From contig NZ_JAHBCL010000027.1 in assembly GCF_018390735.1 (NCBI RefSeq), positions 1 through 64,000 on the forward strand: 64,000 nucleotides of DNA. The letters run 5' to 3'. The DNA comes from Fusibacter paucivorans. GTDB taxonomy: Bacteria > Bacillota > Clostridia > Peptostreptococcales > Acidaminobacteraceae. This document shows, one piece after another, positions 10,487 to 30,000 of the stretch; within the stretch, counting starts at the first letter, position 1; the number at the start of each line of letters is the position of its first letter. The position numbers and the translations under genes are program-made. A model generated the notes under the pieces. It worked only from the letters and a program-made list of their open reading frames with translations, was not told the DNA's origin and did not search any database.

Positions 10487-11563
10487 TTAAAGCTCAATCG
10501 TTTTCGTAATAAACAGTGTCAAGTTATCCATCAAGTTCACAATATCGCCTTTTTTATTATTGACGATCAGTTGTACCAGCGGACGAGTTTGCGCCTCTCG
10601 GTTCTCTTTTATGACAATGCCAATCGTACCATTTGACAGTTCAACAATTGTCCCTGGCGGGTAGATATTGACCACCTTAAGCAAATGATAATAGATTTCA
10701 CGGTCCAATTGGTAAATCGCTTCAGCTCTTAAAATTTCAAGGGCTTCATCGACATTTAATTTTTCTCGATATGCACGGTTAGAGACAAGTGCATTAAAAA
10801 TATCACACATCGTCACAATACGTACATGTACCGGGATTTCATCAGCCGTCAACCGCATTGGGTAGCCATTGCCATCCAGCTTTTCGTGATGCAGCAGTAT
10901 AATTTGCCGAGATATTGGCGAAATGCTGATCGATTCTTTTAAAATATCATAACCAAAGCGCGCATGTTCTTTTACAAGCTTCATTTCCTCATCGGAAAGC
11001 GGCGTGATCTTATTCAGCACTTCATTTGGGATTTTCATTTTCCCAATATCGTGCAGCATGGCACCGACGCCAATTTTTTGTATAAACTGGTGATTGAGCC
11101 CGAGACTTTTCGCCACGAGCATTGAAAGTACGGCAACTTCGGCAGAGTGGTTATAGGTATACATATCTGTTCCCATCAATTCTGCCATGACATAAAGCGT
11201 ATCCCGATGCGAAAAGACAATCTCCATCATCTCATCAATAATGTCTTTAATTTGATCGACCTGCATGGCATCAAATCCCACGCTCTTTTTCCCGGTCGCC
11301 TGTTTAAAGACATTTTGAATAACATTGACTGATTTAAGTTTCAACTCTTGGGAGACGACGTTCTCAGGCTCTATGCCTTCAGAAATTTCATCCTCGATGT
11401 AGATACATTGAATGCTCGCTTGTTTTAATCGGTCAATGTAGTTCTGCGTCAATGCAACATTTCGAGCTAGAAGCAACTGACACTTGTCGTCATAAACCGA
11501 TTTGCCCAACACTTCTCCAACGGCGATGCGTTCAATACTTTTTAACCTCAAAACAACCTCCAC
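10487..11563 (-). CDS. HD-GYP domain protein, predicted c-di-GMP phosphodiesterase
   Basis: HDIGKMKIPNEVLNKITPLSDEE ... LHHEKLDGNGYP. Confidence 0.93.
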   Translation of the reverse strand: MEVVLRLKSIERIAVGEVLGKSVYDDKCQLLLARNVALTQNYIDRLKQASIQCIYIEDEISEGIEPENVVSQELKLKSVNVIQNVFKQATGKKSVGFDAMQVDQIKDIIDEMMEIVFSHRDTLYVMAELMGTDMYTYNHSAEVAVLSMLVAKSLGLNHQFIQKIGVGAMLHDIGKMKIPNEVLNKITPLSDEEMKLVKEHARFGYDILKESISISPISRQIILLHHEKLDGNGYPMRLTADEIPVHVRIVTMCDIFNALVSNRAYREKLNVDEALEILRAEAIYQLDREIYYHLLKVVNIYPPGTIVELSNGTIGIVIKENREAQTRPLVQLIVNNKKGDIVNLMDNLTLFITKTIEL

Positions 11564-11631: not shown

Positions 11632-11665
11632 AAAAAAAGAAGAAGGTACACGCGTACCTTCTTGA
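11632..11665 (-). terminator. Intrinsic terminator at the end of the T4P operon
   Basis: Minus AAGAAGGTAcgcgtgTACCTTCTT followed by CTTTTTTT. Confidence 0.8.
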
Positions 11666-11681
11666 AAATCACAGGATGCGT

Positions 11682-14600
11682 TTACTGTAATTTTAATCTT
11701 TTGATAATTTGAATATACTGATTGATTTCCGCTTCTTGGACATTCACACCATAGATGAGTGAGAAGACGAGGCGATAATCCTGGAAGTCAAACTTGCTGT
11801 TTTCGACAAAAATCTTGACTTTTATGACGGCATCATCATCATCGGTTGCAATTGGCAACTCTTTGATCAACAGCTCTGTATTTTTATTATTGCCATCAAT
11901 TTCCTGAAGCACGACATTTTCAACATCAAGCCCTCTTACTTCCTCAATGGATACAATATAGAAGTTTTCATTGTTTTCAAGTTCAACTAAACTCCCATTC
12001 TCCATGTAACGAAGCATCAATTGAATATTTACATTCTCAAACGAAACATCTTTTGATGGCTTAATATAGAGCTCAACATCGCCGTACCCGGCTCCTTCTA
12101 AAATATTGGTTGAACGCGTCTTGAAGCCAACAATACCGTTCCGTGCATCTTCATCTTCCGTGTTATCTGTAAAGACTAGATACCCAACAACAATTTTTTC
12201 TTCTAAAAGCTTCTCAATACCATTAAAGCGCTCGTTTTCAGCGTAGATGCCATTCTCATCAGCATCACTATACACATCTGTAATCAGTTTGACCAAATCT
12301 ATTACGTGCGGCTGATTTGTGGTATAAATTTTAAGTCCCTTAGCAAAATGCATCGTTAGCGACATACTATAGACACCTGGTTCAAAGACATTTCCCGCAC
12401 CAAGATCTACCGTTAGGGTTCGATTAACTGTATCAAAAACAATCCCTTCCGAGACAATTACATTGCCGTCTACATCACGAATTACAGCATCTACATCACC
12501 CTCTTCATTGAGCAAGCTATATGATCCGCCAGCGATTTGTGATGTAAAACCTGAATCATCAAATACTAGGGTCATGCGTGTTGTCGGTTCATCTAAGTTG
12601 TAATTAATTGTTATGGTTTTGTTAGCATCACCCATGTTGTTAAAGACTGTCTGATTATTTTCAAGATTTTTTTCAACGATTAACCCGATATCACCAACAA
12701 CTTGAACATCTGTAATAATATCTTGGTAGAGTTTTAGCGAAATATCAACAGGATTTTTTGCACCGCTTAATGCTATATTCGCTAATATATAGTTTTCAGT
12801 TAAGTTCCTTTTAATTGTTTCTACAGTACCATCATCATATGTTACGATGATTTCTGCATCTTTATAGCCATCTAAATTGTATCTGACCGTATAGACCTTT
12901 GTACCGCCATCAAGGTCAACAATGACATTTTCGCCACCAACTGTTTCGACTTCAATTTCATCTGATGCACCCTCTATTGTAAGCAGCGCACCGTCAACCG
13001 GACGGTTAAATCGATCCATTGCTGAAACAATCATTTGTCCTTGTTCAACAGTCAACTTCATTGGTCCCGCTTTTACCTTTTCAGCAGGTGTTCCATAATT
13101 GTCATATTGAAGCTCAATAGAGGCATTTATGGTGCCTTCTGAGCCATTAAAGTACGGCGTAAACTCAAGTGGTCGCGTATAGTCAGATACAGCTTTTGTG
13201 TAAACATAAGAATCACCCACAAGTGATGGGCCAGACCATCCTACAACATTGTAATCACTGGTCACAGCATCAAGTTCAGCTTTAGGAATGATAACCGATG
13301 CAATGATATCGCTAAAAGACGCATCGCCCGCCTCGGTCTTTTTCATTTCAATGCTCAACGTACTGCTGTCGCCGATCAATGGATTTTGATCACTCCACTC
13401 AGTATCTTGTGATATTGCTAATCCAACACGGCTTATGTTGCTAATATTGTGAATAGTTTCCACTGTTTTAGCACCGTTTTGATCAGATGCAACAACAATA
13501 ATATTAAATAAATCATACGCATCAAGATCACGCTTATCTGCATTAACTGATAAGTACTGATCATTGTCAACATCATAATAGGTTGCAGCAAGTACATCTC
13601 CAACACCATCCATATCCGTATCAAAATAGATACTGACAGTTGACGTCGTATCTTTTAAATCGAGATCCGACACAGTCACACCAAAGCGGATCGATTCATC
13701 AGTCTTGTAGTAGACTGCACCATCAACAATATTATCAATCACAATAGCAGGTGCATGATTGGCTGTTTTAGACGCTTTGATCATTGTATTCACAAAGAGT
13801 TCGTTTTCATCATTATACGTTTTAGGGCTTGCATGACCTGTTCCCGAATACGTAATATTACCAATTGAATAAACGTAATAATCATTTTGAGCGTCATTGC
13901 CATCATAACTACCACCCGTCAGATTATGCCATACCACCAGGTCTTCATTTTCCATATCTAACTGGAAGTACTGGAAGTGAGTCGTTGAAATATCAAGTGT
14001 ATTACCCAGAATATACGGGAACAATGTAATTTGACCCTCATTCACTTCAACTGCACTGTTTGTAGTTTTTAATCCTTGATTATACCGATCAATTGCCCGA
14101 TTAGAATAGCCTACCGTAAAGTAAGAGCGCCCATTGATTGTCGTATACGGCAGCATCGTATCATTTGAGGCTTCCTGATTGTTATTAATGTAATCCTTTG
14201 CATAGGTATTTTGGCCAAATTGATCCCTAAACCGTTCTGTGAAATCCATATTAGTCGTACCCATATGATTGAGTTTAAACCACAACTGGTCATGCGTCGT
14301 TAGCAAGCTCTGTCCTGAGTCAACAAATGACTGAATGCGATCCATCGCCGCGTCACTAAGCAGAAGTGAGGTCGAAAGTGAATCTGCAAAACCGAGTACT
14401 AACATATCGTAGAGCCCATTTAGTTCAAATGGATTTGCATTATAAGCGTCCACTGACATCTGTGTGATTTCAAGTGTATACAATCCCATAATTTTCTTCA
14501 ATGCTTGAGGCAATTCCGTCAGTTTATAGCTACCACCATTATTCGGTGTAATCTGCAGCACCTTAATATGTCTTACAGCAACGGCTGCATCTGAGGTGCC

Positions 14601-16850
14601 TTTAAAGGCTGCATAGCCGATTTCATAGGTTTTCGCACCAACTGTTTGATCCGTTACCTCAATTTTCCAAGGAACAAACCCAATATATTCTTTTGGTAAA
14701 TTGTAACGCATCAATACATTTTCGAAGTTCTCTGAATACAGCGCGGTTTCAGCTACTGACTCACCATCTACCGTACTAAAAATACCATCACCATTGAAGT
14801 CCAAATAGAGTTCTGCATTGTACTGATGATCGGCGATATAATCTTCAAGTTTAAAGTTAAATGACATATATCGATCTTCTGGCGCCGTCATATATTGACC
14901 GGTTCCATTGCTGCCAATGAATGATAACGGATTATCAAGCACCGTTAGCGTTGGTTTAATCACATAAGCCTCTCCGTTGTAGTCATTTAAAAGGTTCACG
15001 ACGCGATCATTCGTCACGCTACTATAAACTTTGACATTTGTTTGATGGTTATCTTCAAAGTTTGATTTAAGCAGTGTAGCTTTTGAACTACTAAAGATAC
15101 TGCCATCAAACAGTACCAATTGATCTGCCTCTATAAAAGCTTTCAGCTCATCCGCTTTCAACTGCGTAATATCATTTGGCGAATAGTACTCGCCGATACC
15201 GCCATATGTTGAAAAACTCTTTGTTCTGCCATCATATACATCAAGATAACCAGTATATTTTAAATCAGAATCTTGAGCCGGGTAATACTTATCTTCATGA
15301 TTATTTTCACTGCCACTGTTATCTTGCCCAATATAAATGATATCATAAGCACCATTCAACTGCGTTCTATCTGCAATAAATAGACTCATTGGCATTTGTG
15401 TCAGTTCTACATCTGTTCGAAGTTCATTCTCTAAATAGCGCTTATTCAAAACGTAGTTAGCAGAAGGCTGTACTTCCAAAATATTAAGCTTTGCCGGCAA
15501 AGCCATCGTATCAATTGTCTCTGCTCGATAAATCGAATCCCCTGTAGGCGTCACAGCAGTATCTACACTTGATGAAACAACTGATACACTGCCATTGGTT
15601 GCATTCACTTTTACCCAGCGATAGAACTCATAACCGCTAATCGTTTCGTATGATAAAGACAGCGCACTGCCTTTGCGCACATAAGACGTCGTCTGATTAA
15701 TCACAGCTTCATTTGTTATATCATAAGTTTGAAGCTGAATGGCGTAAACGCGTTCAACAACCGCTCGATAAGTTGCTCCATCCCTCGGTATTTCAGAATA
15801 CGATGCATTATCACTCAATGTTGTTGTCACACCATCCAATGTACGCTCCCATCTTAAAAAGCGATAACCATCAACTGGCGTGTATTCAAAATTATAACTA
15901 GTATTTGCCGCAACACTCTGATTCACTGTACTCAAAGCGGTACCACTGACATCGTCATAGGTTTCAACCGTATATGCCGACTGTTCCCCCGCACCGCCAT
16001 TTAGTACCCACCAAACAGCATCTGCTATTAAATACAGCGATTCATCAGATAGATAATGACTGTAGTTTGTCGTTCCGTAAGTTCCGGCAACGCGATACTG
16101 ATTGCTCAAGCTGCTATTATTTGGTTCATAGCCATAGATCAACGGGTATGTACGATAAGAATCTCCAGGAATTTCTTCTGTTGTCGTACTGACGATCGCT
16201 CCGTTTTTCAGACCTGAAACCGCTTGGTAATCTACAGACCAGCCATAGCCGTAATAAAGAAACCAATACCAGTACATGTCCTCATATTGATATAAATAAT
16301 TTAATTTAGTAAAATTTGAGTCACTGATGACATTTTCAGAAAATTCACGATGTCCATCTACTTTCATTACTTTGACGGCATCTGCATTACGCTGATAATA
16401 ATATCCATCCAAATTGACATCAACAACATTATTTGCCAAACCAAATTCTTTTGCTAAGGCATTCTCCACAACCGTTGGATAATCAAATGCTTTTAATTTT
16501 GCAAGCACATCTGGGTTTACTTGATTATGCTCAATATTGTAGAGCACAGACGCCGCAATATAAATTGCACTATAATCCTTCTTTGTGAAATCATTCATAG
16601 AGAAATTTTTAATTTCCTTGTGATAGACTTTAACATCCACATCATCGACAAAATATTTATCAATATCCGTAGCCAATTGTGCATCGGCACTATTGCCATT
16701 AACCCCGGATAAATAGAGAATATTTAGTCTTGTATTGCCATAGGCATTACCGTTGCCATTGCCATTACCTGCCGCTACAATGGGGAATGATGTCATCAAC
16801 ATTGTAATAATTAGAAACAACATCAAAATTTTCTTAGTCATGCGTTGCAC
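11682..16850 (-). CDS. Giant secreted protein (DUF5057-like modules), T4P operon-associated
   Basis: 1722 aa with signal peptide; three modules starting LNILYLSG / LNILEVQP / IKVLQITP; no LPXTG or C-terminal TM. Confidence 0.65.
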   Translation of the reverse strand: MQRMTKKILMLFLIITMLMTSFPIVAAGNGNGNGNAYGNTRLNILYLSGVNGNSADAQLATDIDKYFVDDVDVKVYHKEIKNFSMNDFTKKDYSAIYIAASVLYNIEHNQVNPDVLAKLKAFDYPTVVENALAKEFGLANNVVDVNLDGYYYQRNADAVKVMKVDGHREFSENVISDSNFTKLNYLYQYEDMYWYWFLYYGYGWSVDYQAVSGLKNGAIVSTTTEEIPGDSYRTYPLIYGYEPNNSSLSNQYRVAGTYGTTNYSHYLSDESLYLIADAVWWVLNGGAGEQSAYTVETYDDVSGTALSTVNQSVAANTSYNFEYTPVDGYRFLRWERTLDGVTTTLSDNASYSEIPRDGATYRAVVERVYAIQLQTYDITNEAVINQTTSYVRKGSALSLSYETISGYEFYRWVKVNATNGSVSVVSSSVDTAVTPTGDSIYRAETIDTMALPAKLNILEVQPSANYVLNKRYLENELRTDVELTQMPMSLFIADRTQLNGAYDIIYIGQDNSGSENNHEDKYYPAQDSDLKYTGYLDVYDGRTKSFSTYGGIGEYYSPNDITQLKADELKAFIEADQLVLFDGSIFSSSKATLLKSNFEDNHQTNVKVYSSVTNDRVVNLLNDYNGEAYVIKPTLTVLDNPLSFIGSNGTGQYMTAPEDRYMSFNFKLEDYIADHQYNAELYLDFNGDGIFSTVDGESVAETALYSENFENVLMRYNLPKEYIGFVPWKIEVTDQTVGAKTYEIGYAAFKGTSDAAVAVRHIKVLQITPNNGGSYKLTELPQALKKIMGLYTLEITQMSVDAYNANPFELNGLYDMLVLGFADSLSTSLLLSDAAMDRIQSFVDSGQSLLTTHDQLWFKLNHMGTTNMDFTERFRDQFGQNTYAKDYINNNQEASNDTMLPYTTINGRSYFTVGYSNRAIDRYNQGLKTTNSAVEVNEGQITLFPYILGNTLDISTTHFQYFQLDMENEDLVVWHNLTGGSYDGNDAQNDYYVYSIGNITYSGTGHASPKTYNDENELFVNTMIKASKTANHAPAIVIDNIVDGAVYYKTDESIRFGVTVSDLDLKDTTSTVSIYFDTDMDGVGDVLAATYYDVDNDQYLSVNADKRDLDAYDLFNIIVVASDQNGAKTVETIHNISNISRVGLAISQDTEWSDQNPLIGDSSTLSIEMKKTEAGDASFSDIIASVIIPKAELDAVTSDYNVVGWSGPSLVGDSYVYTKAVSDYTRPLEFTPYFNGSEGTINASIELQYDNYGTPAEKVKAGPMKLTVEQGQMIVSAMDRFNRPVDGALLTIEGASDEIEVETVGGENVIVDLDGGTKVYTVRYNLDGYKDAEIIVTYDDGTVETIKRNLTENYILANIALSGAKNPVDISLKLYQDIITDVQVVGDIGLIVEKNLENNQTVFNNMGDANKTITINYNLDEPTTRMTLVFDDSGFTSQIAGGSYSLLNEEGDVDAVIRDVDGNVIVSEGIVFDTVNRTLTVDLGAGNVFEPGVYSMSLTMHFAKGLKIYTTNQPHVIDLVKLITDVYSDADENGIYAENERFNGIEKLLEEKIVVGYLVFTDNTEDEDARNGIVGFKTRSTNILEGAGYGDVELYIKPSKDVSFENVNIQLMLRYMENGSLVELENNENFYIVSIEEVRGLDVENVVLQEIDGNNKNTELLIKELPIATDDDDAVIKVKIFVENSKFDFQDYRLVFSLIYGVNVQEAEINQYIQIIKRLKLQ

Positions 16851-16860
16851 CTCCTATCTG

Positions 16861-19458
16861 TCATTCATACATTTTCTCTTTCCATTTAACAATTCTAAAC
16901 CGTTCTAATCCAGTAAACATGCCTGAAGTATATCTTGATAAACTAAAGTACGTTTCCGGCCCCTTTTCAAATGGTTTAAAAAATGATTTAACTGGTGTAT
17001 ACAGGTTAATGACTTTTGCAATAACCGCTTCATCATAAACAATATCAGAAGCGGCTCCCGTATGATTAATTGCCACATTACCTGTTGCAATCATCGTACC
17101 GCGAAAATCGAACCCTCCATTTATATTAATCGTTATATCTCCGTCAGCGTATACAATACCACTAAAGTTTCGCTGTACATTCAAAGTCAAATGCGTCGAA
17201 CCCGCATCGCTGTCGCTGATGATAACGGCATTGGCATTATTGCTGTCAATGGTTATAACTGGATTTAAGCTTGTTAAATAATTTACTTTCTGATCGTCCG
17301 AATCCGGCAAATCTGGTGAATACCCCGATTTTATCGCATTGATGTCAACACAAGCTGCTATTGGTTTGTAGGCAATTGTATTTTCAACATCCGTTGACAA
17401 GTCCAAGCTATCTATATTAAAACCAAACGCCATTGTCTTCAGTAAAAACCAGTTTCTCATTAGTTGCTTGTAATTGCTAAAATCCTCTTTCATATCTGTT
17501 TTAACAGCTGTGATAGCAGAGGCATATGACGTATACCCCCCCACTGTTTTTGAGTGGCCAATTAGCAAACCCGTCGTATTAATTAACGCTGATGAAGCGT
17601 CCAGATCAGCAGCGCTATAATTGATATCGATTCCCGTATAAACATTATTCTCAATACGCTCTTGAATTGTTTCTGTATTAAACGAACCACTCTTTGGCGC
17701 ATCAAGCATTGCATCTATTTTTACGGCAGAATCATAGTTGCTGTACAGATTTGGATTCAACATAAAATTGACATCTACTTCACCGCCATCAACCGTCGAT
17801 ACATATGTGTATTTCCTTAAATCAGCAACGGTTTCTGTACCAATATTGCTATCGTATATTTCAGAAAAAATGCGGCTATCATTGCCAGTGATGGACTCCA
17901 AAGTTTGGTAATAATAAGGCGCGCCTACCGTTGCATCATCCAACTTATCAAAACCAATAAACGCCACTCCCGGCATAAAAGCTTTGGTCATTGTAATCTT
18001 GCCGCCTTCTTCAATACTGTTATTAATAAGCGTACTGCTACTATTGGGATCAGCCAGTGTTGATTCGTCTAAAAGGCCAATAATATTCTGATGAACTGTC
18101 ATCTCAGCATCGCCGCTTGTACTCTTAGAAGCTTCCATTGCCAGGTCGCCATATTGCCATGTATTTTCTGCTTCGAGTTTGACACCCTTTGATGCCCTTC
18201 CCGTTATATCCTCAAGTGCTTTAATCTCTTTTGCATAGATATTGCCACCAGAGGCATCACGGTTAAAAAACCAGAAGTAATTGCTTTTGTCTGACGGATA
18301 ACTCTCTTGCTCGTCCTTCGTTACGCTATTCGTATTATCAGCTGTACCAGCATACCCTTCCATAAAAAAGTCAGTCTCTGTACTGCCAACATCATAGGTA
18401 TTGCGTTTATAAGCCGTTACATAACTGCCATTATTGGGCTTGACCTCTAAAACCGTATCAACTCCGTAAAGATTAAGAACGCCTCTGGTATAGACGTTGC
18501 CATAAACCGCATGCTCCCCGGATTCTATCTTGATACCCTTATTATTGGTATAATTCACACCATCATCAGAAGCTTCACTGTATAAACTACCATAAATATC
18601 AAAATCACCATTGATGATAATATCACCGCCTGCTGTAATCGCATTGGTCCACACGGGATTGGTATTAAAAACCTTGTTCTGAACTTCTAAAACGGGTTCG
18701 TACTGCGGGTCGATAACGCGTACCGCATAATCAATCGCTTGAGCGCCAGCTCCCAGTGATGACACTGTCTGAACCGTTTTTGACAGTGTCAATGTCGGCT
18801 GGTAGAGATCATCAACATAAGCGCCGTTGAAGCCTAAGGTGCCGATATCAGCATCGTAGCCATATGCTGCACTTAACAGTGCCCTTGCCGTCACAAAATA
18901 CAATTCATTAAATGACGTTTCTGTAAACTGCTTTTCGAGTGAAGCCAATGAATGGCTGTCAGCATCTTCTACGAGTGGATCATATACCAATGCAACTTCA
19001 TTCAGATACTTCTGATAAAAATACATTTGAAATGTATCACCATAAGCATCGCCATTAAAGTAGGTCGCTTGATTTTTCAACCCCTCATCCCCGTGTTTTG
19101 TCAGGTTTTGAAAAAGAAGTGTCTGATTAGAAAAACTACCGTCATTTTCTTCTCTCTGATAGGCAATGCCTACCTGAAATGATGCATTCGGTACTTCTTC
19201 ATAAGTTCTGTTCGAAAAAAAATGTGTTGTAAACTGTTCGACTGCTTTCAAATTTTCATCTATTTTAAAAAGGGATGCTTCAGCATCAGAATCGAGTTTG
19301 TAATAATCTGATGACCATGTCGTTTGGTCTCCAGCAAGCTTCAGGTGCGATACAGCGCCAAGCATTAACGTCGTTCCCAAAACCATGACGATCATAATGA
19401 TCACAACTGCCAATACCAGCGTTGATCCCTGTTCACTTTTAAAGTTGAACCTTTTCAC
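16861..19458 (-). CDS. PilX-like type IV pilus assembly/minor pilin protein with large ectodomain
   Basis: 865 aa; N-terminal QGSTLVLAVVIIMIVMVLGTTLMLGAVSHLKLA hydrophobic helix; last but one gene of the pil operon. Confidence 0.6.
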   Translation of the reverse strand: MKRFNFKSEQGSTLVLAVVIIMIVMVLGTTLMLGAVSHLKLAGDQTTWSSDYYKLDSDAEASLFKIDENLKAVEQFTTHFFSNRTYEEVPNASFQVGIAYQREENDGSFSNQTLLFQNLTKHGDEGLKNQATYFNGDAYGDTFQMYFYQKYLNEVALVYDPLVEDADSHSLASLEKQFTETSFNELYFVTARALLSAAYGYDADIGTLGFNGAYVDDLYQPTLTLSKTVQTVSSLGAGAQAIDYAVRVIDPQYEPVLEVQNKVFNTNPVWTNAITAGGDIIINGDFDIYGSLYSEASDDGVNYTNNKGIKIESGEHAVYGNVYTRGVLNLYGVDTVLEVKPNNGSYVTAYKRNTYDVGSTETDFFMEGYAGTADNTNSVTKDEQESYPSDKSNYFWFFNRDASGGNIYAKEIKALEDITGRASKGVKLEAENTWQYGDLAMEASKSTSGDAEMTVHQNIIGLLDESTLADPNSSSTLINNSIEEGGKITMTKAFMPGVAFIGFDKLDDATVGAPYYYQTLESITGNDSRIFSEIYDSNIGTETVADLRKYTYVSTVDGGEVDVNFMLNPNLYSNYDSAVKIDAMLDAPKSGSFNTETIQERIENNVYTGIDINYSAADLDASSALINTTGLLIGHSKTVGGYTSYASAITAVKTDMKEDFSNYKQLMRNWFLLKTMAFGFNIDSLDLSTDVENTIAYKPIAACVDINAIKSGYSPDLPDSDDQKVNYLTSLNPVITIDSNNANAVIISDSDAGSTHLTLNVQRNFSGIVYADGDITININGGFDFRGTMIATGNVAINHTGAASDIVYDEAVIAKVINLYTPVKSFFKPFEKGPETYFSLSRYTSGMFTGLERFRIVKWKEKMYE

Positions 19459-20282
19459 TCTACGCCTCCGTATTTACTGCCGGTATACACGCCGATGGTT
19501 TCGCCGCTTTTGCGATCACTCATGGTTACTGTGATGGTATAGACGCCGCTTGCCGATGAATCGTATACACCATAATCTGTCAAATTCACATTCCCTTCAG
19601 TATCTATTGCACTTTCGTTGTCTGCATTTCTATAAACAGCCACACGCAATATGTCATCTCTAATTTCATCATATGCCAACGAAGATTCAGCCGTTGATAA
19701 ATCGTTTTGAATATTAACACTGCCAAGACCACTGCCCGTTAAATTTAGCGTCAGTGTCAACGTCGATACATCTTCTACTGGAATTGCCATCGTCTGATTC
19801 GGTAGACCGGATGCCAAAAGCGTATAGGTTGTTCCTGCATCATCAACTATTAATTGAATCGTGCCGGATGTATCAAACGTGACATCAAAATCACCGGAAA
19901 CAGCTCCTACACCTGTTGTTACCTGACTTGGATAAGCAATGGCAATATCCATTTGATATCGCGCTTCACCTGCTGTTGCAACATATGACCAATTACTGTC
20001 AAAGTAAGCGCGCAAGTTTTCTGCATTTGTTACAATCTCTCTCGTTACCCAAGTTCCGTTGTTAATGGTATTAAAGTAATCATCCAGCGTACCAATGTAT
20101 TTAAACTGTTCAACCATTTGGTTGCCAATGGTTAGTGCTTGATTTTTTTCTGATGCAATCGTCTCACCTGTTGCAGAGATTACAAAAAATTTCATTAAGA
20201 TCCCGGATAAAAGGCCCAAAATAGCAATGGTTATAATCAGTTCAACCAGTGAAAACCCGTATTCGCTGCCGAATCGTCTCAT
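19455..20282 (-). CDS. Type IV prepilin-like minor pilin
   Basis: N-terminal GFSLVELIITIAILGLLSG class III signal. Confidence 0.85.
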   Translation of the reverse strand: MRRFGSEYGFSLVELIITIAILGLLSGILMKFFVISATGETIASEKNQALTIGNQMVEQFKYIGTLDDYFNTINNGTWVTREIVTNAENLRAYFDSNWSYVATAGEARYQMDIAIAYPSQVTTGVGAVSGDFDVTFDTSGTIQLIVDDAGTTYTLLASGLPNQTMAIPVEDVSTLTLTLNLTGSGLGSVNIQNDLSTAESSLAYDEIRDDILRVAVYRNADNESAIDTEGNVNLTDYGVYDSSASGVYTITVTMSDRKSGETIGVYTGSKYGGVE

Positions 20283-21595
20283 GGTATTACCTGTACCTTC
20301 CCAGTTAAAGAATCAATCACAAATCGAGGTTTTTCAACATCTTCATTCGCAATTGTAATATTCAACGGCAAATTGGTATTATTGACAATCGTCGCACGAA
20401 TCCCCACCTGATCAGAAACTTCTTTTCTTGCCGATGAATAAACATTTAATACGATACGATCGCTGTTCGAAGGGGTAAACGTTCCCGAAAATCGATTGCC
20501 GCTTAATTCGTAAACATAATTTAACGTATCGCCATCTCCGCTTACACGAAGTGTTAATGGTACAACACCATTACTGTAATCGTATAAAATGCTGTTATCT
20601 GCACCGCGTTTCATCATGTCTATTTTTTCGCCATTTACCATGTAGTTATTGATAATCAGCGCAAAATCACCATTGTCATTGGCAGCCGCTTCTAAGTCAG
20701 CCTCTGTAAGGGTACCGCCGCTTTCTGAAAAGATATTGCCGCTTTGACCAGCTTCTTCAGGGACTGTAATACCAATTTCCCCCTCGGTTGTACGATCGTG
20801 ATAGCCGACAAAGCGAAGGCTAAAATTGGCTACAATTTGATCTGTACTCGCTACATAACTGCTGTTGGTAATAAAAATCGCCTCTTGATCTTGTTCAATT
20901 AAGCTTAAAAACTGCATCAAATGCTGATAATCTGCGGTCACGCTAATGCTGATATCCTGCGAAAGCACCGCAGCATCCATTGCTGCAAGCTGCGTTTTCA
21001 AACTGTCATCGCTGGCGCTGTTGACGAGGTCTTCAAGTGTCAAAGGCTGCATTCCCGTTTCTTCAACGGTATCAGATGTTATGCCAAGTTCTTCTTCATA
21101 TCGCTTTTTAATATCCTCTTCAACCTGCGCGGTGTATTCACTTGCTTTCTCATTTACAGCCTGTTGAATTTTCTCTTCTTCTGTTAACGCCTCTTTATTG
21201 GCTTGTGAAGCTGAAGCCTCAATAAGGCCAACATCGGATACATTACCAAAGCTATAGGTCGTAATATTTACTGATGCTGTTTTAGAGAAACCCAATAGCT
21301 TCATGAGAATGACATCCTGATTTAGTTCAGACGGAAAGCGTCGCTTCAAAATAACATCATTTTTTTCAAGCTCTGCAATGCGATCATTATAGGCGCTTCG
21401 ATGACTGATTTCATTGTTTATGACATTCTGTTGTTCAATTTTCTGGTTAAATTGAGCCGTTGCCGCATTTAATCCCAATTGTGCATCTTCAAGGAAGAAA
21501 TTAAGTGTTATATAAACGATGCCCACGACTGCCAACACCGATAAAAGCGCTCTCTCTTTGAATGTCAAATTACGACGTGCTTTCTTTCTTGCCAT
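20279..21595 (-). CDS. PilO-like T4P alignment-complex protein with extended C-terminus
   Basis: N-terminal TM plus coiled coil, position after pilM-pilN; 438 aa. Confidence 0.6.
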   Translation of the reverse strand: MARKKARRNLTFKERALLSVLAVVGIVYITLNFFLEDAQLGLNAATAQFNQKIEQQNVINNEISHRSAYNDRIAELEKNDVILKRRFPSELNQDVILMKLLGFSKTASVNITTYSFGNVSDVGLIEASASQANKEALTEEEKIQQAVNEKASEYTAQVEEDIKKRYEEELGITSDTVEETGMQPLTLEDLVNSASDDSLKTQLAAMDAAVLSQDISISVTADYQHLMQFLSLIEQDQEAIFITNSSYVASTDQIVANFSLRFVGYHDRTTEGEIGITVPEEAGQSGNIFSESGGTLTEADLEAAANDNGDFALIINNYMVNGEKIDMMKRGADNSILYDYSNGVVPLTLRVSGDGDTLNYVYELSGNRFSGTFTPSNSDRIVLNVYSSARKEVSDQVGIRATIVNNTNLPLNITIANEDVEKPRFVIDSLTGKVQVIP

Positions 21596-21614: not shown

Positions 21615-22190
21615 CTATTTTAACGCAACTTGAAGCGTAAATGAAATATTTGCATTCTCTTCCAACATTTCATCAAGATTTTCCACAGCTACAGTATTCG
21701 TCTGTGCACTGGTAATGCTATTGACAAAGACACTTTCCACCAGTGATTCATCTTTTAACCTTCTAATTAAATAACCAACACTTTCCACACTATTGGCCGA
21801 TCCGGAAATATTGATATTACCGTTACTGTCATAAGTACAGCTCATGGCATTAACGCCACTCGGAAATGTATTTCCCAATAACAAGAGAATTTCTGTGTCT
21901 AAGTGACCCTTACCGGTTGCATTTAACAATTCATAAGCCGATTGTCTAATTTCCATTTCATTAATCGTTTGCTTAAGATCCATAATTTCATTATATGTTT
22001 CAACATCCAGTGTAATGTCATTTACTTCACGCATCATAAGCTGTGCTGCAATTTTATAATACCCAATTGTACTTATGGCAAAGAGCAATGTTAATGCAAC
22101 GATACCAAATAGCAATTTATGTTTTGTTTTTTCTTTCCTTCGGAGACTCTTTTCGGAATGAAGGCCTTCAAAGAGATTAATGTCTTTCAT
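21615..22190 (-). CDS. pilN: PilN-like T4P alignment-complex protein
   Basis: MKDINLFEG...KHKLLFGIVALTLLFAISTIGYYKI; follows pilM. Confidence 0.75.
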   Translation of the reverse strand: MKDINLFEGLHSEKSLRRKEKTKHKLLFGIVALTLLFAISTIGYYKIAAQLMMREVNDITLDVETYNEIMDLKQTINEMEIRQSAYELLNATGKGHLDTEILLLLGNTFPSGVNAMSCTYDSNGNINISGSANSVESVGYLIRRLKDESLVESVFVNSITSAQTNTVAVENLDEMLEENANISFTLQVALK

Positions 22191-22203: not shown

Positions 22204-23250
22204 CTATTTTGCAGCTTTCGAACGTCGCTTAAGCTTTGGCAATTTAATGTCTTTTAATAATGGATTATTGCTTCTTTTAGATGTTTCATGCATTAAACAA
22301 CCTAAGACATTTAAATATTGACCGTCCTCTTCTATTCGAGATACAGGGATCGCATGCTCTGCCTTTAAGTGTTCGAAAAAGTAATCAAGTTTTGCACCAT
22401 TACCATAGAGGATAATCGCTTCGATACGTCCCTCTAATTTATTATAGTTGAAAAAATCAAGTGTTTGCCTGATTTCATCTTCTATGCGCAGGCAACTGAG
22501 GCGTACATATTTTCGCATATCCTCTTCAGTAATGCCAAAAGCCTCATATTTTCCAAGGCGACATTCCAGCGCCTGTGATTTTTCAAGTCCTAGTTCTCTT
22601 TCCAGCATTTCATCAATCATATTGCAGCCACCCGGCACAAAACGATTAAAGAGGATACGCCCGCGACGCGTTAATGTCACGCAGGTAGCGTTTTCACCAA
22701 AATCTATGAGTATCGCATTTTCAGCACGGTAGACATCGACGAGTTTCGCCTGATAATACTTTGCTACAGCATTGGGATGAATATCCATATAGCTAGGATC
22801 AACATCTAGCAGCTCTGCTAATAAAACATAGGAATCAATTAAATCCTTGGGCATTAACACCAAAATCCCTGATATAGTCTCTTCATTCTGCTCATAAATG
22901 CGGTATGACATGGTGTGCGAATCCAAAATCGTACTCAATGTCTCTGTTATTTGAAGCTCTAGCGCACCGCGTATCTCCTCATCACCTTCGAAAAAAGGAA
23001 TTTGAAACTGCCTAATAATACAGGTGGATGTGTTGACAGATACAGCCAATGACTGCACGCGCCATTTTCTCGCATGGAGCGCTGCCGTTAATGCATCCGC
23101 AATAGGTTCCGGATTTGTCAGCCGTCCATCAAAATATGTGCCCAGCGGCGTTTCTATCTCAAAGACTTCCTTGAGTTTATCACCCTGTTGATATGCAATC
23201 TTCATATAAGCTTTGCCAATATCCAGCGCTAAAATCTTTTCACTGCTCAT
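22204..23250 (-). CDS. pilM: PilM-like actin-fold T4P assembly protein
   Basis: SSEKILALDIGKAYMKIAYQQG..., AILIDFGENATCVTL...GGCNMIDEML. Confidence 0.88.
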   Translation of the reverse strand: MSSEKILALDIGKAYMKIAYQQGDKLKEVFEIETPLGTYFDGRLTNPEPIADALTAALHARKWRVQSLAVSVNTSTCIIRQFQIPFFEGDEEIRGALELQITETLSTILDSHTMSYRIYEQNEETISGILVLMPKDLIDSYVLLAELLDVDPSYMDIHPNAVAKYYQAKLVDVYRAENAILIDFGENATCVTLTRRGRILFNRFVPGGCNMIDEMLERELGLEKSQALECRLGKYEAFGITEEDMRKYVRLSCLRIEDEIRQTLDFFNYNKLEGRIEAIILYGNGAKLDYFFEHLKAEHAIPVSRIEEDGQYLNVLGCLMHETSKRSNNPLLKDIKLPKLKRRSKAAK

Positions 23251-23258
23251 CTGTACTC

Positions 23259-23840
23259 CTAAATATCCGACCTCAATAATATGGTCGTTACGATCGTCTC
23301 TGTCAATGATGCTGACACACGGTATCGAACACTGACATCAAAGTATTTTAATACATCTACACCGTCAATATTCTGTGTCGTTTGTTTATCAAATACAATG
23401 TCTTCAATATATTTGGATTCGACAATTGGATACCAAGTTGTCGAAGAATTTTCATAGTCATTGGACGAAGTGCCAAAAGCCACTTCCAGCACATCACACC
23501 ATTCGTCATCAATTTGTTGATTGGTTATACGCATCCACTGGTAAGAATACGGATTGTTTTCAATAATAAAGGCCGTATCTGGGTCATAAATTTGAAGATA
23601 CGCCGTACTGTCAACGGTTACAAATTGAATGCGTCCGGCTGCATCATGCCGATGTACTTCTGCTACCACATATTGTACCGTTAGATTGGCGTCTTGTGTT
23701 GCTTCAATTTCTTGTGAAATACGGCTGTTCTGATTCGCTGAAAAAAACATCAGTCGCGACATCAAACCACCGACAATTCCTAAAATCGCAATAACGATCA
23801 CCAGTTCTACCAATGTAAAACCATTGCTTCGCTTTTCCAC
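23259..23840 (-). CDS. Type IV prepilin-like minor pilin
   Basis: MEKRSNGFTLVELVIVIAILGIVGG. Confidence 0.88.
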   Translation of the reverse strand: MEKRSNGFTLVELVIVIAILGIVGGLMSRLMFFSANQNSRISQEIEATQDANLTVQYVVAEVHRHDAAGRIQFVTVDSTAYLQIYDPDTAFIIENNPYSYQWMRITNQQIDDEWCDVLEVAFGTSSNDYENSSTTWYPIVESKYIEDIVFDKQTTQNIDGVDVLKYFDVSVRYRVSASLTETIVTTILLRSDI

Positions 23841-24217
23841 TAATGTGTCTCCTCAATTTCTACCTTACCGAATAAGCCGCTATTGATATAGCGATACGTA
23901 TAGCCGCCTCGAAAAGCAATATCGAATGTATCATGCAGCGTCGTCATCCAAACTGTCAAGTCAGCATTATCCTCCGCAATTGTCGTTTCAGTTGCATCTG
24001 TTGTCTGGCTAATCTGCTTACCATAAAGAACGTAATACTGTTTCAGCCCCATAGTGATTTCATTCTCATAGCCTTCAAGTGAAATATTACTTTCCATTTG
24101 CTTAGCTCCTAAAAATATGGGAGCACCAATTAATAGTAGTGTGCTTATAATGGCAATTACAACAATTAGTTCAATCATAGTAAAACCACATTTTGTTAAT
24201 ATTTGTAATTTATTCAT
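23840..24217 (-). CDS. Type IV prepilin-like minor pilin
   Basis: MNKLQILTKCGFTMIELIVVIAIIS; start moved to internal ATG. Confidence 0.8.
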   Translation of the reverse strand: MNKLQILTKCGFTMIELIVVIAIISTLLLIGAPIFLGAKQMESNISLEGYENEITMGLKQYYVLYGKQISQTTDATETTIAEDNADLTVWMTTLHDTFDIAFRGGYTYRYINSGLFGKVEIEETH

Positions 24218-24256
24218 ACAACTCCACAACCTCATACAGTAGCCCTATTAGAAATA

Positions 24257-24280
24257 GAGAAAAGAGGCGCGTAGCGCCTC
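24257..24280 (-). terminator. Intrinsic terminator-like hairpin inside the pil operon, after the major pilin
   Basis: Minus GAGGCGCtacGCGCCTC followed by TTTTCTC. Confidence 0.6.
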
Positions 24281-24288
24281 ATGACCAA

Positions 24289-24744
24289 TTAATATGTTAC
24301 TTCGCCAGTATCTACATTAATTGTAGCCGTTCCGTTTGCAGAAACAATTCTCAGATAATTATATGCAGATGTTGCCGTTCCAGTTGAAGCAGGAATTGCA
24401 GTATCTGTAGTAAACGTAGAAACAGTATCATAACTTGCACTTGTTAAGCCAGAAATTGCTAATGCATTCCCATCTGTATCTTTATAAGTTAATGTTCCTC
24501 CAGAATAATAAATAACATCAACGAGTGGAGGCTTAACTCCATTTTTAGCTGTATAAATTGATATCATGTTATTTAATGCGGTTGCATCACTTTTTAACCT
24601 AGCAGTTTTTGCTTCATTTGTGTAATTTCCCAATCTCGGCATCATCATTCCTGCGAGAATACCAATAATTGCGATAACGACGATCAACTCGACGAGTGTA
24701 AAGCCTTTGTTATTTTTGCGTTTTTTCATGATTTTGTTAAACAT
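24289..24744 (-). CDS. pilA: Type IV pilin, probable major pilin
   Basis: MKKRKNNKGFTLVELIVVIAIIGILAGMM; directly downstream of pilC. Confidence 0.88.
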   Translation of the reverse strand: MFNKIMKKRKNNKGFTLVELIVVIAIIGILAGMMMPRLGNYTNEAKTARLKSDATALNNMISIYTAKNGVKPPLVDVIYYSGGTLTYKDTDGNALAISGLTSASYDTVSTFTTDTAIPASTGTATSAYNYLRIVSANGTATINVDTGEVTY

Positions 24745-24795: not shown

Positions 24796-26007
24796 CTACA
24801 ACATCTCCATTGTAGTTTCCATAATTTTCATCAACGGCAACATGACCGATACGAGAATCGATCCGACGACGCCCGCCATTAAAATCAGCATGAGCGGCTC
24901 AATCATCGTCGTCGCCCGCCCTATGGCTTCTTCAACTTCATCATCAAAGAAGCCTGCCGTTCTTGCTAAAATATCATCCAATTCACCGGTGCGCTCACCA
25001 ACAGCAATCATTTGCGTCAGCAGCGGTGGAAAAACACCCACGGTTTGAATTGACTTGGATAATCCATACCCTTTCCGAATATCCTCTCTACAGGTGGTAA
25101 ATCTATTTTCTACTTCGACATTACCAAGCAGTGTACTCATGATTTCAATTGCATCAATCATGGAAATCCCACTTCTCAATAAAATCGACATACTGCGCGC
25201 AAAGCGCGCGGTGATGATTTTCGCAGTAACGCCTTTGATAATCGGCACCCTTAACATCAGGCGATCCAGCACTTCTCTGCCGGCCGCCGACTTTCGCCAG
25301 TTGAGAAAAGCAGTGACACCCGCTGCAACAACGGCAATGATCCACAAAAATTTCGCCTTGATAAAATCACTCATGTTGATCATAAATTGCGTAATACCCG
25401 GCAATGTTGCACCAAAGCCACTAAGCGTGTCTGCGAAAATAGGAATAACGACGGTTAAGAGTACAATGACAACGGCAATCATCAGAAAGAAAAGTACAAT
25501 CGGATACGTCATCGCTCCCTTTACTTTATTCTTGATTTTGTTGTCGCGCTCATAATAATCCGCCATCCGGTTCAGAATTTCATCGAGGTTACCACTGACT
25601 TCACCGACTTTGATCATGTTCCTGAGAAACTCTGGAAAAATCTGGTGGTGTAAATCAAGTGCTTCTGATAAAACCTTTCCCTTTCGAATGTCGTCATAGA
25701 CGACTCTCAGTACTTCTTTAAGCTTTGGGTTTCCCGTTTGCAGCGTTAAGATTTCAATGGTTTCCAAAATCGTTATGCCTGAATTGAACAAAACGGCAAA
25801 TTGGCGGCAAAAGACGGTGATATCTTTGATTTTTACTTTTTGAAATCGTTTGAGTAATTCAAAATTTTCTCCGGCTTCTTCAAAACTGACGATGAAGTAC
25901 CCCTGCCCTCGAATGTAGGCTTTGAGTTCAGCATCATTGGCAGCCGTGGTTTCACCTTCAATGACTTTGCCTTGTAAATTCTTCGCTTTATACTTGTAAA
26001 CGCCCAA
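24796..26007 (-). CDS. pilC: T4P inner-membrane platform protein PilC (GspF family)
   Basis: MGVYKYKAKNLQGKVIEGE...; two GspF-like repeats with TM helices. Confidence 0.92.
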   Translation of the reverse strand: MGVYKYKAKNLQGKVIEGETTAANDAELKAYIRGQGYFIVSFEEAGENFELLKRFQKVKIKDITVFCRQFAVLFNSGITILETIEILTLQTGNPKLKEVLRVVYDDIRKGKVLSEALDLHHQIFPEFLRNMIKVGEVSGNLDEILNRMADYYERDNKIKNKVKGAMTYPIVLFFLMIAVVIVLLTVVIPIFADTLSGFGATLPGITQFMINMSDFIKAKFLWIIAVVAAGVTAFLNWRKSAAGREVLDRLMLRVPIIKGVTAKIITARFARSMSILLRSGISMIDAIEIMSTLLGNVEVENRFTTCREDIRKGYGLSKSIQTVGVFPPLLTQMIAVGERTGELDDILARTAGFFDDEVEEAIGRATTMIEPLMLILMAGVVGSILVSVMLPLMKIMETTMEML

Positions 26008-26017
26008 GCTTCACCTC

Positions 26018-27091
26018 TTAGAAAGGATTGTTCAGCAGTGTCTGTAATCCTTTTTTGTCAATTGACCTTAAAATTGCTTCCTCTCTTGAAATCATACGAT
26101 TTCGATAAAGTCTCAGCAGGTCTGCGTTCATGGTTTGCATCCCATCCATGGTGTTGGTTTGCAATACGCTGTTGATCTGATAGGGTTTCCCCTCTCTGAT
26201 GAGATTGCTCACCGCTGAATTGGTTTTTAGCACCTCACAGGCTACGCATACCCCAGAGTCATCCAATTTAGGAATGAGCTGCTGTGTGATAACGCCCTGC
26301 ATAACGGTTGCCAATTGATTTTGAATCTGATTTTGCTGTTCCGGCGGGAAAATGTCCAGTATCCGGTCAACGGTTTTCGCTGCACCGAGCGTATGCATCG
26401 TCGAAAAGACGAGATGCCCAGTTTCAGCTGCTGTAATGGCAATGCGCGTCGTCTCTAAATCCCTCATCTCGCCAACGAGTATAACATCTGGGTCTTCCCT
26501 GAGCGCCGCCCTGAGTGCTGTGGCAAAGCTGTGGGAGTCCAGTCCGATTTCACGCTGATTGACGATGGACTTTTTATGACGATGGAGGTATTCGATTGGA
26601 TCTTCAACTGTTATGATATGTTTACTCTGGTTTGCATTGATAATGTCCAACAGACTCGCCAGTGTCGTGGATTTGCCACTGCCGGTTACGCCTGTCACCA
26701 ATATCAATCCACCCGGTAAATCAGCAAACTCTCTCACCGTGTTTGGAAGTCCCAAACTTTCAAAACTCGGTATGTCAAACGGCTGAATACGAATAGCCAT
26801 CGCATAGGTGCCACGCTGTTTAAACGCGTTAACACGATACCTTCCAAGCCCCTGCCTGGAAAATGAACAGTCTGCTTCACCCTTTGTTTCAAGTTCTGCA
26901 AATTTTCGTTCATCTAGTGCTTGTTTGATAAGTTCCTTCGTATCTTCCTGCATTAACCGCCCAAAGTTTTCAAGGAAGATTAAGTGCTTATGCTTTCGTA
27001 CGCACGGAAATGTGCCTACTGTGATATGAATATCGGATACTTTTAGTTGATCTGCTTTTTCCAGCAAGTCATCTAATGTGAAATTCAACAT
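26018..27091 (-). CDS. pilT: T4P retraction ATPase PilT
   Basis: Walker A GVTGSGKSTTLASLLD; REIGLDSHSFATALRAALREDPDVILVGEMRD; AAETGHLVFSTMHT. Confidence 0.94.
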   Translation of the reverse strand: MLNFTLDDLLEKADQLKVSDIHITVGTFPCVRKHKHLIFLENFGRLMQEDTKELIKQALDERKFAELETKGEADCSFSRQGLGRYRVNAFKQRGTYAMAIRIQPFDIPSFESLGLPNTVREFADLPGGLILVTGVTGSGKSTTLASLLDIINANQSKHIITVEDPIEYLHRHKKSIVNQREIGLDSHSFATALRAALREDPDVILVGEMRDLETTRIAITAAETGHLVFSTMHTLGAAKTVDRILDIFPPEQQNQIQNQLATVMQGVITQQLIPKLDDSGVCVACEVLKTNSAVSNLIREGKPYQINSVLQTNTMDGMQTMNADLLRLYRNRMISREEAILRSIDKKGLQTLLNNPF

Positions 27092-27108: not shown

Positions 27109-28776
27109 CTATACAAATACTGTTTTTGTCATTTCATCGAAGGAGCTATCTCCTCTTAAAACAACGTCTTTTGCATTGGCAAACAATGTTGCCATCCCTG
27201 ATTCAACTGCAATGTTCTTTATTTCCTCCGAAGACTGGCCTGTAATAATTGCTTTTTTTAGTGTCTCTGTTATTTCGAGCACTTCATGAATAGCAATACG
27301 CCCTTGATAACCGGTATCATTGCACCTCGTACAGCCTCTCGCACTGAATAGCTTTGTACCCGGTTCAACCCCCAAGACTTCCATTTCAAATGGTTTGGCA
27401 TCATATGGCCGCTTGCAATGCGGACAGAGTGTTCGCATCAGTCGCTGTGCAATGACGCCGACAAGTCCTTCTGCTACCAAAAAAGCGGGGATGCCCATGT
27501 CAACAAGACGTGTTATGGATGTTGCCGCATCATTTGTATGAATCGTCGATAACACCATATGGCCAGTAATTGCGGATCTTACAGCAATTTCTGCAGTTTC
27601 TTCATCTCTAATTTCACCAATCATAATTACGTCAGGATCTTGTCTTAAGATGCTGCGCAGCCCTCTTGCAAAAGTGAGCCCCGCCTTTGTGTTTACCTGA
27701 ACCTGATTAATGCCATCAAACATGTACTCTACTGGATCTTCAACGGTTACGACATTTTGCGAAACGTCGTTTTGTTCCTTGAGCAAGGTGTATAACGTCG
27801 TCGTTTTACCGCTGCCCGTCGGTCCTGAAATAAGTACGATGCCATATGGCGATCGCTGAAACTTATCAATCAAACCGTCTTCATGCTTTGTAAATCCAAG
27901 CTTGGAACGGTCTAAAAGCTGATTGCCTCGATTGAGAATTCTCAATACGAGTTTTTCACCAAATACTGTTGGAAGTGTTGACACGCGAATGTCATAAGCC
28001 CTTCCGTCAATTTCTGTCTCAATTCTGCCATCCTGCGGCACCCTCTGTTCAGCGATATTGATTTCCGCCAAAATTTTAAAGCGCGTTAAAACACCACTGT
28101 AAGAGGTTTTCGGTATATTCATTATCTTGGTCAGCACGCCATCGACACGTACGCGTACATATACTTCGCTTTCAAACGGTTCGATGTGTATATCGCTGGC
28201 ACTTAAGTCAATTGCTTGGTTAATAATTGATTTTACAAGGCGTACTGTTGGCGCGTTCGTGATTTCATCGCCCTCATCCAGCTGATCGTCAAAACTTTGA
28301 ATGCTGAATTCTTTTTTTAGCTCTTCGATGGCCTTTTGTGAACTTTCATCCACATAGTATTTATCAATTGCCCAATTGATACTGTCTTCATCTGATATAA
28401 ACGGCTTGATGCTCTTTTTTGTAATAAAGTGAACATCATCAATGGCATGTAAGTCGAACGGATTTGAAATGGCCATACAGACAACACCATCTTCCATGCC
28501 GAACGGCATAACATTGTATTTTTTTGCGACATTTTGCGGTATCAGTTTTGCGACGCTGCGGTCAACATTCGTATCCATGAGGTCAATCAACGGCAGTTTA
28601 AACTGGATAGACAGCGTTTTAGCAATCTGCTCTTTCGTAACATAATTAAGCTTTACCAACGCTTCGCCAAGTTTTAAAAAATGTTCTTTCTGATATTGTA
28701 TGGCATCCTGAAGCTGATCACTTGTGATATCACCTGAATCGATGAGAATGTCGCCCAATCTTTTTCTATCTGTCAA
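27109..28776 (-). CDS. pilB: T4P assembly ATPase PilB with N-terminal MshEN-type domain
   Basis: GPTGSGKTTTLYTLL, CxxC zinc motif; N-terminal RLGDILIDSGDITSDQLQDAIQYQ-KEHFL-KLGEALVKLNYVTKEQIAKTLSIQ. Confidence 0.94.
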   Translation of the reverse strand: MTDRKRLGDILIDSGDITSDQLQDAIQYQKEHFLKLGEALVKLNYVTKEQIAKTLSIQFKLPLIDLMDTNVDRSVAKLIPQNVAKKYNVMPFGMEDGVVCMAISNPFDLHAIDDVHFITKKSIKPFISDEDSINWAIDKYYVDESSQKAIEELKKEFSIQSFDDQLDEGDEITNAPTVRLVKSIINQAIDLSASDIHIEPFESEVYVRVRVDGVLTKIMNIPKTSYSGVLTRFKILAEINIAEQRVPQDGRIETEIDGRAYDIRVSTLPTVFGEKLVLRILNRGNQLLDRSKLGFTKHEDGLIDKFQRSPYGIVLISGPTGSGKTTTLYTLLKEQNDVSQNVVTVEDPVEYMFDGINQVQVNTKAGLTFARGLRSILRQDPDVIMIGEIRDEETAEIAVRSAITGHMVLSTIHTNDAATSITRLVDMGIPAFLVAEGLVGVIAQRLMRTLCPHCKRPYDAKPFEMEVLGVEPGTKLFSARGCTRCNDTGYQGRIAIHEVLEITETLKKAIITGQSSEEIKNIAVESGMATLFANAKDVVLRGDSSFDEMTKTVFV

Positions 28777-28840
28777 AATATACTCCTATATCATGTCCTA
28801 ATGACAATTATACCGTAAGTCTTTCTTAATAATCTCATTT

Positions 28841-28875
28841 TAAAAATAAAAAATGCTGCAGTCGAAACTGCAGCA
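28841..28875 (-). terminator. Intrinsic terminator, expression platform of the c-di-GMP riboswitch
   Basis: Minus TGCTGCAGT-TTCG-ACTGCAGCA (9 bp stem, UUCG loop) followed by TTTTTTATTTTTA, 65 nt before pilB. Confidence 0.9.
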
Positions 28876-28998
28876 GAACCATCGTAGTCAATAATACCTA
28901 TTTCATCAAACGCCTACAACATTTGTGAAACAGCATTACCACCTTAGACTTCTAGCTTTGCGTCCTACCCTTTCGAATAGTTTGCCCAACACTTTGCT
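28876..28998 (-). ncRNA. Class I c-di-GMP (GEMM-I) riboswitch
   Basis: Minus GTTGGGCAAACTATTCGAAAGGGTAGGACGCAAAGCTAGAAGTCTAAGG...CTACGATGG; CUAUUC-GAAA-GGGUAG stem with GAAA tetraloop; conserved GGCAAAC and GGACGCAAAGC. Confidence 0.9.
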
Positions 28999-29017
28999 AT
29001 TCATGTAACTTTCCTAT

Positions 29018-29046
29018 ATTATACCCCACTTTTAAGGGGTTGTAAA
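29018..29046 (-). promoter_or_regulatory. Near-consensus sigma-A promoter for the riboswitch-T4P operon
   Basis: Minus TTTACA (29041-29046), 17-nt spacer, TATAAT (29018-29023). Confidence 0.8.
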
Positions 29047-29121: not shown

Positions 29122-30000
29122 TTACAAAGAGCCAAACAGCCATACATAAATGAGACTTTTCCCGAAAAGCAAACTGATCACTGTCCCCATGGCAATAAAT
29201 GGTCCAAAGGGAATCTGCATCCTGCGCTGCTTTTTAAAAAAGACCAGCAAGATCACACCAAAGACACCGCCAATGATAAAGGCAAGCCATAATGCCAGAA
29301 GTGTCAGCTGCCAGCCCAAAAAGAGACCAATTGGCGCGAAAATCTTGACATCACCAAATCCTAAGCCCCCGCTCTCGCCGTATATCAAGTCCGTTACAAG
29401 CGCAATGGCCAGTAAGATCAATGATCCAGACAGCATCCCGATAAACCCATTATACGGTTTTGCGCTATAGTAAATACTATTGCCGTAAAACACATGGTAA
29501 GCGGAGGTAACGAGACCTGTTATCAGTCCAAACAACACGATACCATCCGGAATAATCATGGTATGCAAATCAATCAATGCCATAACCAGCATCAGCGAAA
29601 TCAACACAAATGCAAATAGCGTCTCAAAATGAAAGCCAAATTGATGATAGGCGATCACGTAAAGGATGCCATTGGCAAGTTCTACCAAAGGATACTGGAT
29701 TGCAATGCGCTCACCACAGGTACGACAGCGCCCTCTTAACACGAGATAACTGAAAACCGGAATGAGCTCATAGGGCTTAAGCTGTGTTTTACAGCTTCCA
29801 CAGGCTGACGGCGGAAAGACAATGCTCTCGCCATTTGGTATTCGATAGATGCAAACATTTAAAAAAGAGCCAATGACCAGCCCTAGGATTAATACGAGTA
29901 AATACGTTGGAAACGCCTCCCATCTTAAGCCGACAAACGATCTGTAATGATTACAATGTAAGCGTTTTATACCATTATAATGAATAACGCTCATTATCAC
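29122..30000 (-). CDS. pilD: Prepilin peptidase PilD (A24 family); exact start uncertain
   Basis: GSFLNVCIYRIPNGESIVFPPSACGSCKTQL...GRCRTCG; D-containing TM helices, GFGDVK. Confidence 0.92.
   Translation of the reverse strand: MIMSVIHYNGIKRLHCNHYRSFVGLRWEAFPTYLLVLILGLVIGSFLNVCIYRIPNGESIVFPPSACGSCKTQLKPYELIPVFSYLVLRGRCRTCGERIAIQYPLVELANGILYVIAYHQFGFHFETLFAFVLISLMLVMALIDLHTMIIPDGIVLFGLITGLVTSAYHVFYGNSIYYSAKPYNGFIGMLSGSLILLAIALVTDLIYGESGGLGFGDVKIFAPIGLFLGWQLTLLALWLAFIIGGVFGVILLVFFKKQRRMQIPFGPFIAMGTVISLLFGKSLIYVWLFGSL

Follow-up and report, generated by a model that had tools for sequence, protein, structure and literature searches.

A class I c-di-GMP riboswitch predicted to switch on a type IV pilus operon in Fusibacter paucivorans

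A type IV pilus (T4P) operon of Fusibacter paucivorans is preceded by a leader that, judged from its sequence, belongs to the c-di-GMP-I riboswitches and turns transcription ON, a reading to which we assign a probability of roughly 0.88. The leader lies within a stretch of 64,000 nt that was analysed as a whole and is called the window below. An earlier note on this DNA had left the choice between ON and OFF open; a conserved overlap of aptamer and terminator (14/14 leaders) and a doubly co-varying base now point to ON, and we consider the direction of the switch predictable with good confidence. ON switches of class I and the control of pili by c-di-GMP are each already known; what this leader adds is a direction that can now be assigned and the swapping of one aptamer class for another at a single operon. 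We found no earlier report of a class I switch at T4P genes in Clostridia in the literature covered, a coverage outside which subscription journals mostly lie.

Architecture of the leader

The following elements, all on the minus strand, make up the leader.

29018..29046, minus strand: sigma-70-type promoter TTTACA-17-TATAAT, 11 of 12 matches
28869..28996, minus strand: c-di-GMP-I (GEMM-I) aptamer, P2 with GAAA tetraloop and lengthened P3 (RF01051, 49.1 bits)
28854..28875, minus strand: intrinsic terminator, 9 bp, UUCG loop (hairpin search, fold and alignment of leaders)
28848..28853, minus strand: U-tract of the terminator (sequence reading)

The promoter claimed in the earlier note, with TTTACA (from 29046) and TATAAT (to 29018) separated by 17 nt, is present and ranked first among 65 promoter-like sites in the 20 kb scanned, and the leader comparison placed promoter-like letters equivalently in the relatives. 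Its spacer holds an inverted repeat, ACCCC..GGGGT, which is imperfect in the sister species. The class I GEMM aptamer was likewise borne out by the Rfam search of the window, in which RF01051 matched 28996-28869 (minus strand) over the full model (1-87 of 87) with 49.1 bits (E 1.4e-6), against a curated gathering score of 35 bits; the same aptamer reached 56.8 bits (E 3e-10) in the whole-genome search. By our assignment, the ligand-pocket bases G20, A47 and C92 (Vc2 numbering) correspond to 28985, 28958 and 28870. The terminator hairpin reads TGCTGCAGT-TTCG-ACTGCAGCA at 28875-28854 and is followed by TTTTTT, so that the proposed UUCG terminator and U-tract stand, but the hairpin does not come directly after the aptamer as had been stated: it shares the final 7 nt of the aptamer match. 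Domain matches (MshEN and T2SSE) agree with the identification of the downstream gene, starting at 28776, as pilB.

The P3 of this aptamer (28996-28869) contains a stable hairpin insertion of about 50 nt that is seen only in this genus (the window and locus L115). The class II model R1 had no match in the window and RF01786 none in the genome, where RF01051 sites number three: the window leader and two arranged in tandem on a different contig. This tandem class I pair (contig C7, 29658-29877, plus strand, L001/L002) stands ahead of a gene for a 263-aa secreted, transglutaminase-like protein. The window also carries a glycine riboswitch (RF00504, 61 bits, 47223-47126, minus strand) ahead of a 366-aa open reading frame on the same strand (47000-45900).

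Aptamer and terminator share bases

The 5' arm of the terminator (28875-28867) includes the 3' strand of P3 and the C92 equivalent. In the Rfam alignment, 28874-28872 pair with 28955-28957 to form the three base pairs at the bottom of P3, while position 28870, which we take to be the ligand-pairing C (C92 in Vc2 numbering), pairs with 28859 in the terminator. Since the two structures share bases and are mutually exclusive, c-di-GMP should turn the operon ON. The minimum free energy was -47.8 kcal/mol with the terminator and -37.0 kcal/mol with its 3' arm held unpaired, from which it follows that RNA without ligand should finish in the terminator state and that the ligand must bind before this hairpin forms. 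The distance from C92 to its G partner in the terminator is 11 nt in the window and 11-19 nt in the class I relatives; with only 11 nt available, the choice between aptamer and terminator is probably under kinetic control.

The proposed mechanism runs as follows. At low c-di-GMP, the bases at the 3' end of the aptamer (C92 and the 3' strand of P3) would pair with downstream sequence to form the UUCG terminator, and transcription would stop upstream of pilB. If c-di-GMP were bound first, the shared bases would be held in the aptamer, the terminator would be blocked and RNA polymerase would read into the 17-kb T4P operon. We infer both ligand binding and readthrough for this leader.

Conservation and co-variation in the host family

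We compared 30 pilB loci of the host family, obtained by PilB searches. A class I aptamer was found at 14 of them, with its position and orientation relative to pilB kept, a class II aptamer at 4 and neither at 12; at most family loci without a c-di-GMP aptamer, none was found up to 8 kb upstream. Thirteen relatives thus carry the aptamer at the equivalent place, and 12 remain when a near-identical copy from the same genus is set aside, which is more than chance would give. A second species of the genus (L115) has a leader that has hardly changed and retains the whole P3 insertion. The gene directly 3' of the leader in L121 encodes a prepilin peptidase. In L128, L132 and L134, and in similar form in L137, all from one related genus, a palindrome confined to that genus, TTTGTCAATGACAAA, lies between the terminator and pilB and is a possible operator.

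The 5' arm of the terminator ran into the 3' end of the aptamer in all 14 class I leaders of the family. Among 32 control class I aptamers of the same and related genomes, which were the top-scoring and not random ones, a formal overlap occurred in 4, and only 1 of these folded below -8 kcal/mol. A search across the taxonomic class with the leader model recovered similar overlapping terminators in other Clostridia, with T4P genes within about 1.5 kb at none of the 29 best loci.

Co-variation was analysed in an alignment of the 13 distinct class I leaders. The aptamer helices (P2 with its GNRA tetraloop and P3) were paired in 95.3% of cells, compared with 20-55% in slid controls, and 7 pairs had changed on both sides; the terminator was 100% paired in 13/13 leaders, with 2 pairs changed on both sides. 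Column 127 takes part in both structures. With column 46 it forms P3 pairs that are C-G in 9 leaders and U-A in 4, and with column 154 terminator pairs that are G-C in 7, A-U in 4 and G-U in 2; G stands at column 127 when C is its partner in P3 and C or U its partner in the terminator, and A when it has U as partner in both. The four U-A leaders belong to one genus, so this change may be a single event. The adjacent terminator pair, 126-155, is kept in 13/13 leaders as A-U, G-C or U-A, while the P3 partner of column 126 is unpaired in 6. The patterns at columns 126 and 127 indicate that both structures are kept.

Predicted ligand

The leader RNA very probably senses c-di-GMP. The pocket bases G20, A47 and C92 are present in all 13 distinct leaders. 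Variants that recognise cGAMP (GEMM-Ib) carry A20, and none of the 13 leaders does; G20 throughout argues for c-di-GMP over cGAMP. That the aptamer senses 3',3'-cGAMP instead is suggested by the switch at Geobacter pilM, functionally the nearest analogue at a pilus operon, which responds to cGAMP and has the same terminator design. We rejected this reading as extremely unlikely on the basis of G20, with the caveat that position 20 is a selectivity factor and not a strict filter (PMC9262584).

The genome has 49 GGDEF matches. Two HD-domain proteins with an HHExxDGxGYP-type HD-GYP signature are encoded near the operon (10487-11563 and 5328-6425, minus strand) and are, by this signature, probable c-di-GMP phosphodiesterases. 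Together these genes indicate that c-di-GMP signalling is well developed. The nearer of the two HD-GYP-type genes begins less than 80 nt past the operon terminator, and leaky readthrough into it could provide feedback.

The pilus operon

The genes downstream of the leader, all on the minus strand, are listed in order of transcription.

27109..28776, minus strand: pilB, extension ATPase with N-terminal MshEN, TTG start (T2SSE 3.5e-131, MshEN 1.5e-22)
26018..27091, minus strand: pilT-like ATPase (T2SSE)
24796..26007, minus strand: pilC (T2SSF)
24289..24744, minus strand: probable major pilin (N_methyl)
24264..24280, minus strand: terminator-like hairpin with U-rich tail, 3' of the pilin gene (hairpin search)
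23840..24235, minus strand: pilin-like protein (N_methyl)
23259..23840, minus strand: pilin-like protein (N_methyl)
22204..23250, minus strand: pilM (domain match)
21615..22190, minus strand: pilN (domain match)
20279..21595, minus strand: protein at the PilO position, assigned by position only, no Pfam match
19455..20282, minus strand: pilin-like protein (N_methyl)
16861..19458, minus strand: 865-aa protein with a single N-terminal hydrophobic segment, no Pfam match (sequence)
11682..16850, minus strand: 1722-aa DUF5057 protein, last gene of the operon (domain match)
11640..11663, minus strand: terminator at the operon end (hairpin search)

The gaps between genes are mostly 0-20 nt, with about 50 nt on each side of the pilin gene. 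This spacing (28776 to 11682) fits the T4P operon of roughly 17 kb that had been proposed. The hairpin after the pilin gene (24280-24264) may lower distal expression by partial attenuation. It is reasonable to infer that the switch reaches over the whole 17-kb operon. A prepilin peptidase gene (29122-30000) lies upstream of the leader, outside the reach of the switch. The 1722-aa DUF5057 protein and the 865-aa protein are possibly tip or adhesin proteins.

The PilB N-terminus, RLGDILIDSGDITSDQLQDAIQYQ-KEHFL-KLGEALVKLNYVTKEQIAKTLSIQ, resembles a published c-di-GMP motif of 24 residues (PMC5013675) repeated twice with a 5-residue spacer, the second copy without the central G. Given this domain, c-di-GMP may act directly on the motor as well, and so may act twice, on transcription and, as the motif suggests, on PilB.

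Known systems and alternative readings

The Geobacter metallireducens pilM riboswitch (GEMM-Ib, cGAMP), in which an exclusive design has been measured as ON, with the ligand-pairing C75 taken up by the terminator (PMC9262584), resembles the present leader in its GEMM-I fold, its pilus operon, the direction (predicted here), a terminator that excludes the aptamer and the sequestered ligand-pairing C. It differs in its ligand, as G20 predicts c-di-GMP here, in its Gram-negative host and in the distance from that C to its partner (27 nt for C75-G102, 11 nt here). In Clostridioides difficile, the class II riboswitch Cdi-2-4 upstream of pilA1 is ON, with c-di-GMP raising T4P genes (PMC6366702, PMC6200980). 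As predicted for our leader, it keeps transcription from terminating early and so raises T4P expression, but it has an unrelated fold, precedes pilA1 and acts on the pilB operon there through partial readthrough. Bc2 of Bacillus thuringiensis, as cited in PMC6366702, is a class I ON switch of the cap gene; it shares with our leader the class I c-di-GMP aptamer and, as predicted here, ON control by transcription readthrough, with a collagen adhesin controlled there and pili here.

C. difficile Cd1, at the flgB operon, likewise combines a class I aptamer (ligand-pairing C87; PMC9262584) with a transcription terminator and a long operon for a surface structure, there flagella, and it is OFF. On its model, the bound aptamer of our leader would coexist with the terminator and an antiterminator would form without ligand, and every functional class I switch characterised in C. 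difficile is indeed OFF, though on a different platform (PMC6200980, PMC6366702). Aptamer and terminator coexist in Cd1, however, whereas those of the window leader have bases in common, the ligand-pairing C among them; c-di-GMP, moreover, raises pili in C. difficile. We rejected the OFF reading, which we hold to be very unlikely, because of the shared bases. It is somewhat easier to imagine, if still improbable, that the leader is degenerate, the long P3 and the 11-nt interval having left a constitutive terminator while a second promoter below it serves pilB. The window aptamer scores lowest in the set, at 49.1 bits where the relatives reach 57-69; the fold favours the terminator state by about 11 kcal/mol; a TATAAT-like sequence occurs near 28800; and of 16 c-di-GMP riboswitches predicted in C. 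difficile, only 11 proved functional (PMC6366702). Yet the core bases and both structures are all kept, the L115 leader is nearly identical with the whole P3 insertion retained, and the promoter scan found no good -35 element below the terminator.

Two unrelated aptamer classes at the same operon

For comparison, we sampled 80 pilB loci from other families of the same order. A class II aptamer preceded the operon in 37 of these and a class I aptamer in 2. The 37 comprise 18 above the Rfam cut-off and 19 detected by a model derived from these together with related leaders. About half of the pilB class II aptamers outside the host family (L157-L236) score below the RF01786 gathering cut-off, and surveys at that score therefore undercount. 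The two class I loci are L184 and L196; in L196 the aptamer heads pilD-pilM-pilN, with pilB further downstream. By eye, an overlapping terminator was seen in L196 and none in L184. A terminator-like hairpin overlapped the 3' end of the aptamer in 37 of 42 class II leaders, several of these hairpins being weak.

PilB trees unite most of the host family's class I leaders in a clade adjoining class II leaders, whereas L184 and L196 sit among class II leaders. The window PilB is a long branch, and a single clade with the other class I members of the family was not rejected (AU p = 0.47). The trees need four changes between class I and class II, probably three if the long-branched window PilB joins its family. 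On balance we lean towards the view that the T4P operon has swapped its c-di-GMP aptamer for an unrelated fold more than once (in the host family and, as single cases, in two other families), the ON logic usually being rebuilt by a terminator embedded in the 3' end of the aptamer.

Discussion

The choice between ON and OFF can now be tested directly from a named set of bases, and the aptamer-terminator distances, which range naturally from 11 to 19 nt among the class I leaders, suit tests of kinetic control. Our results suggest that the C. difficile rule of 'class I OFF, class II ON' does not extend to related Clostridia. Questions of what riboswitch evolution conserves can be put to a natural set of about 50 pilB leaders, where aptamers of two unrelated folds seem to serve one function. 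If the exchange is real, selection would preserve when and in which direction the operon is switched, rather than the sensor itself.
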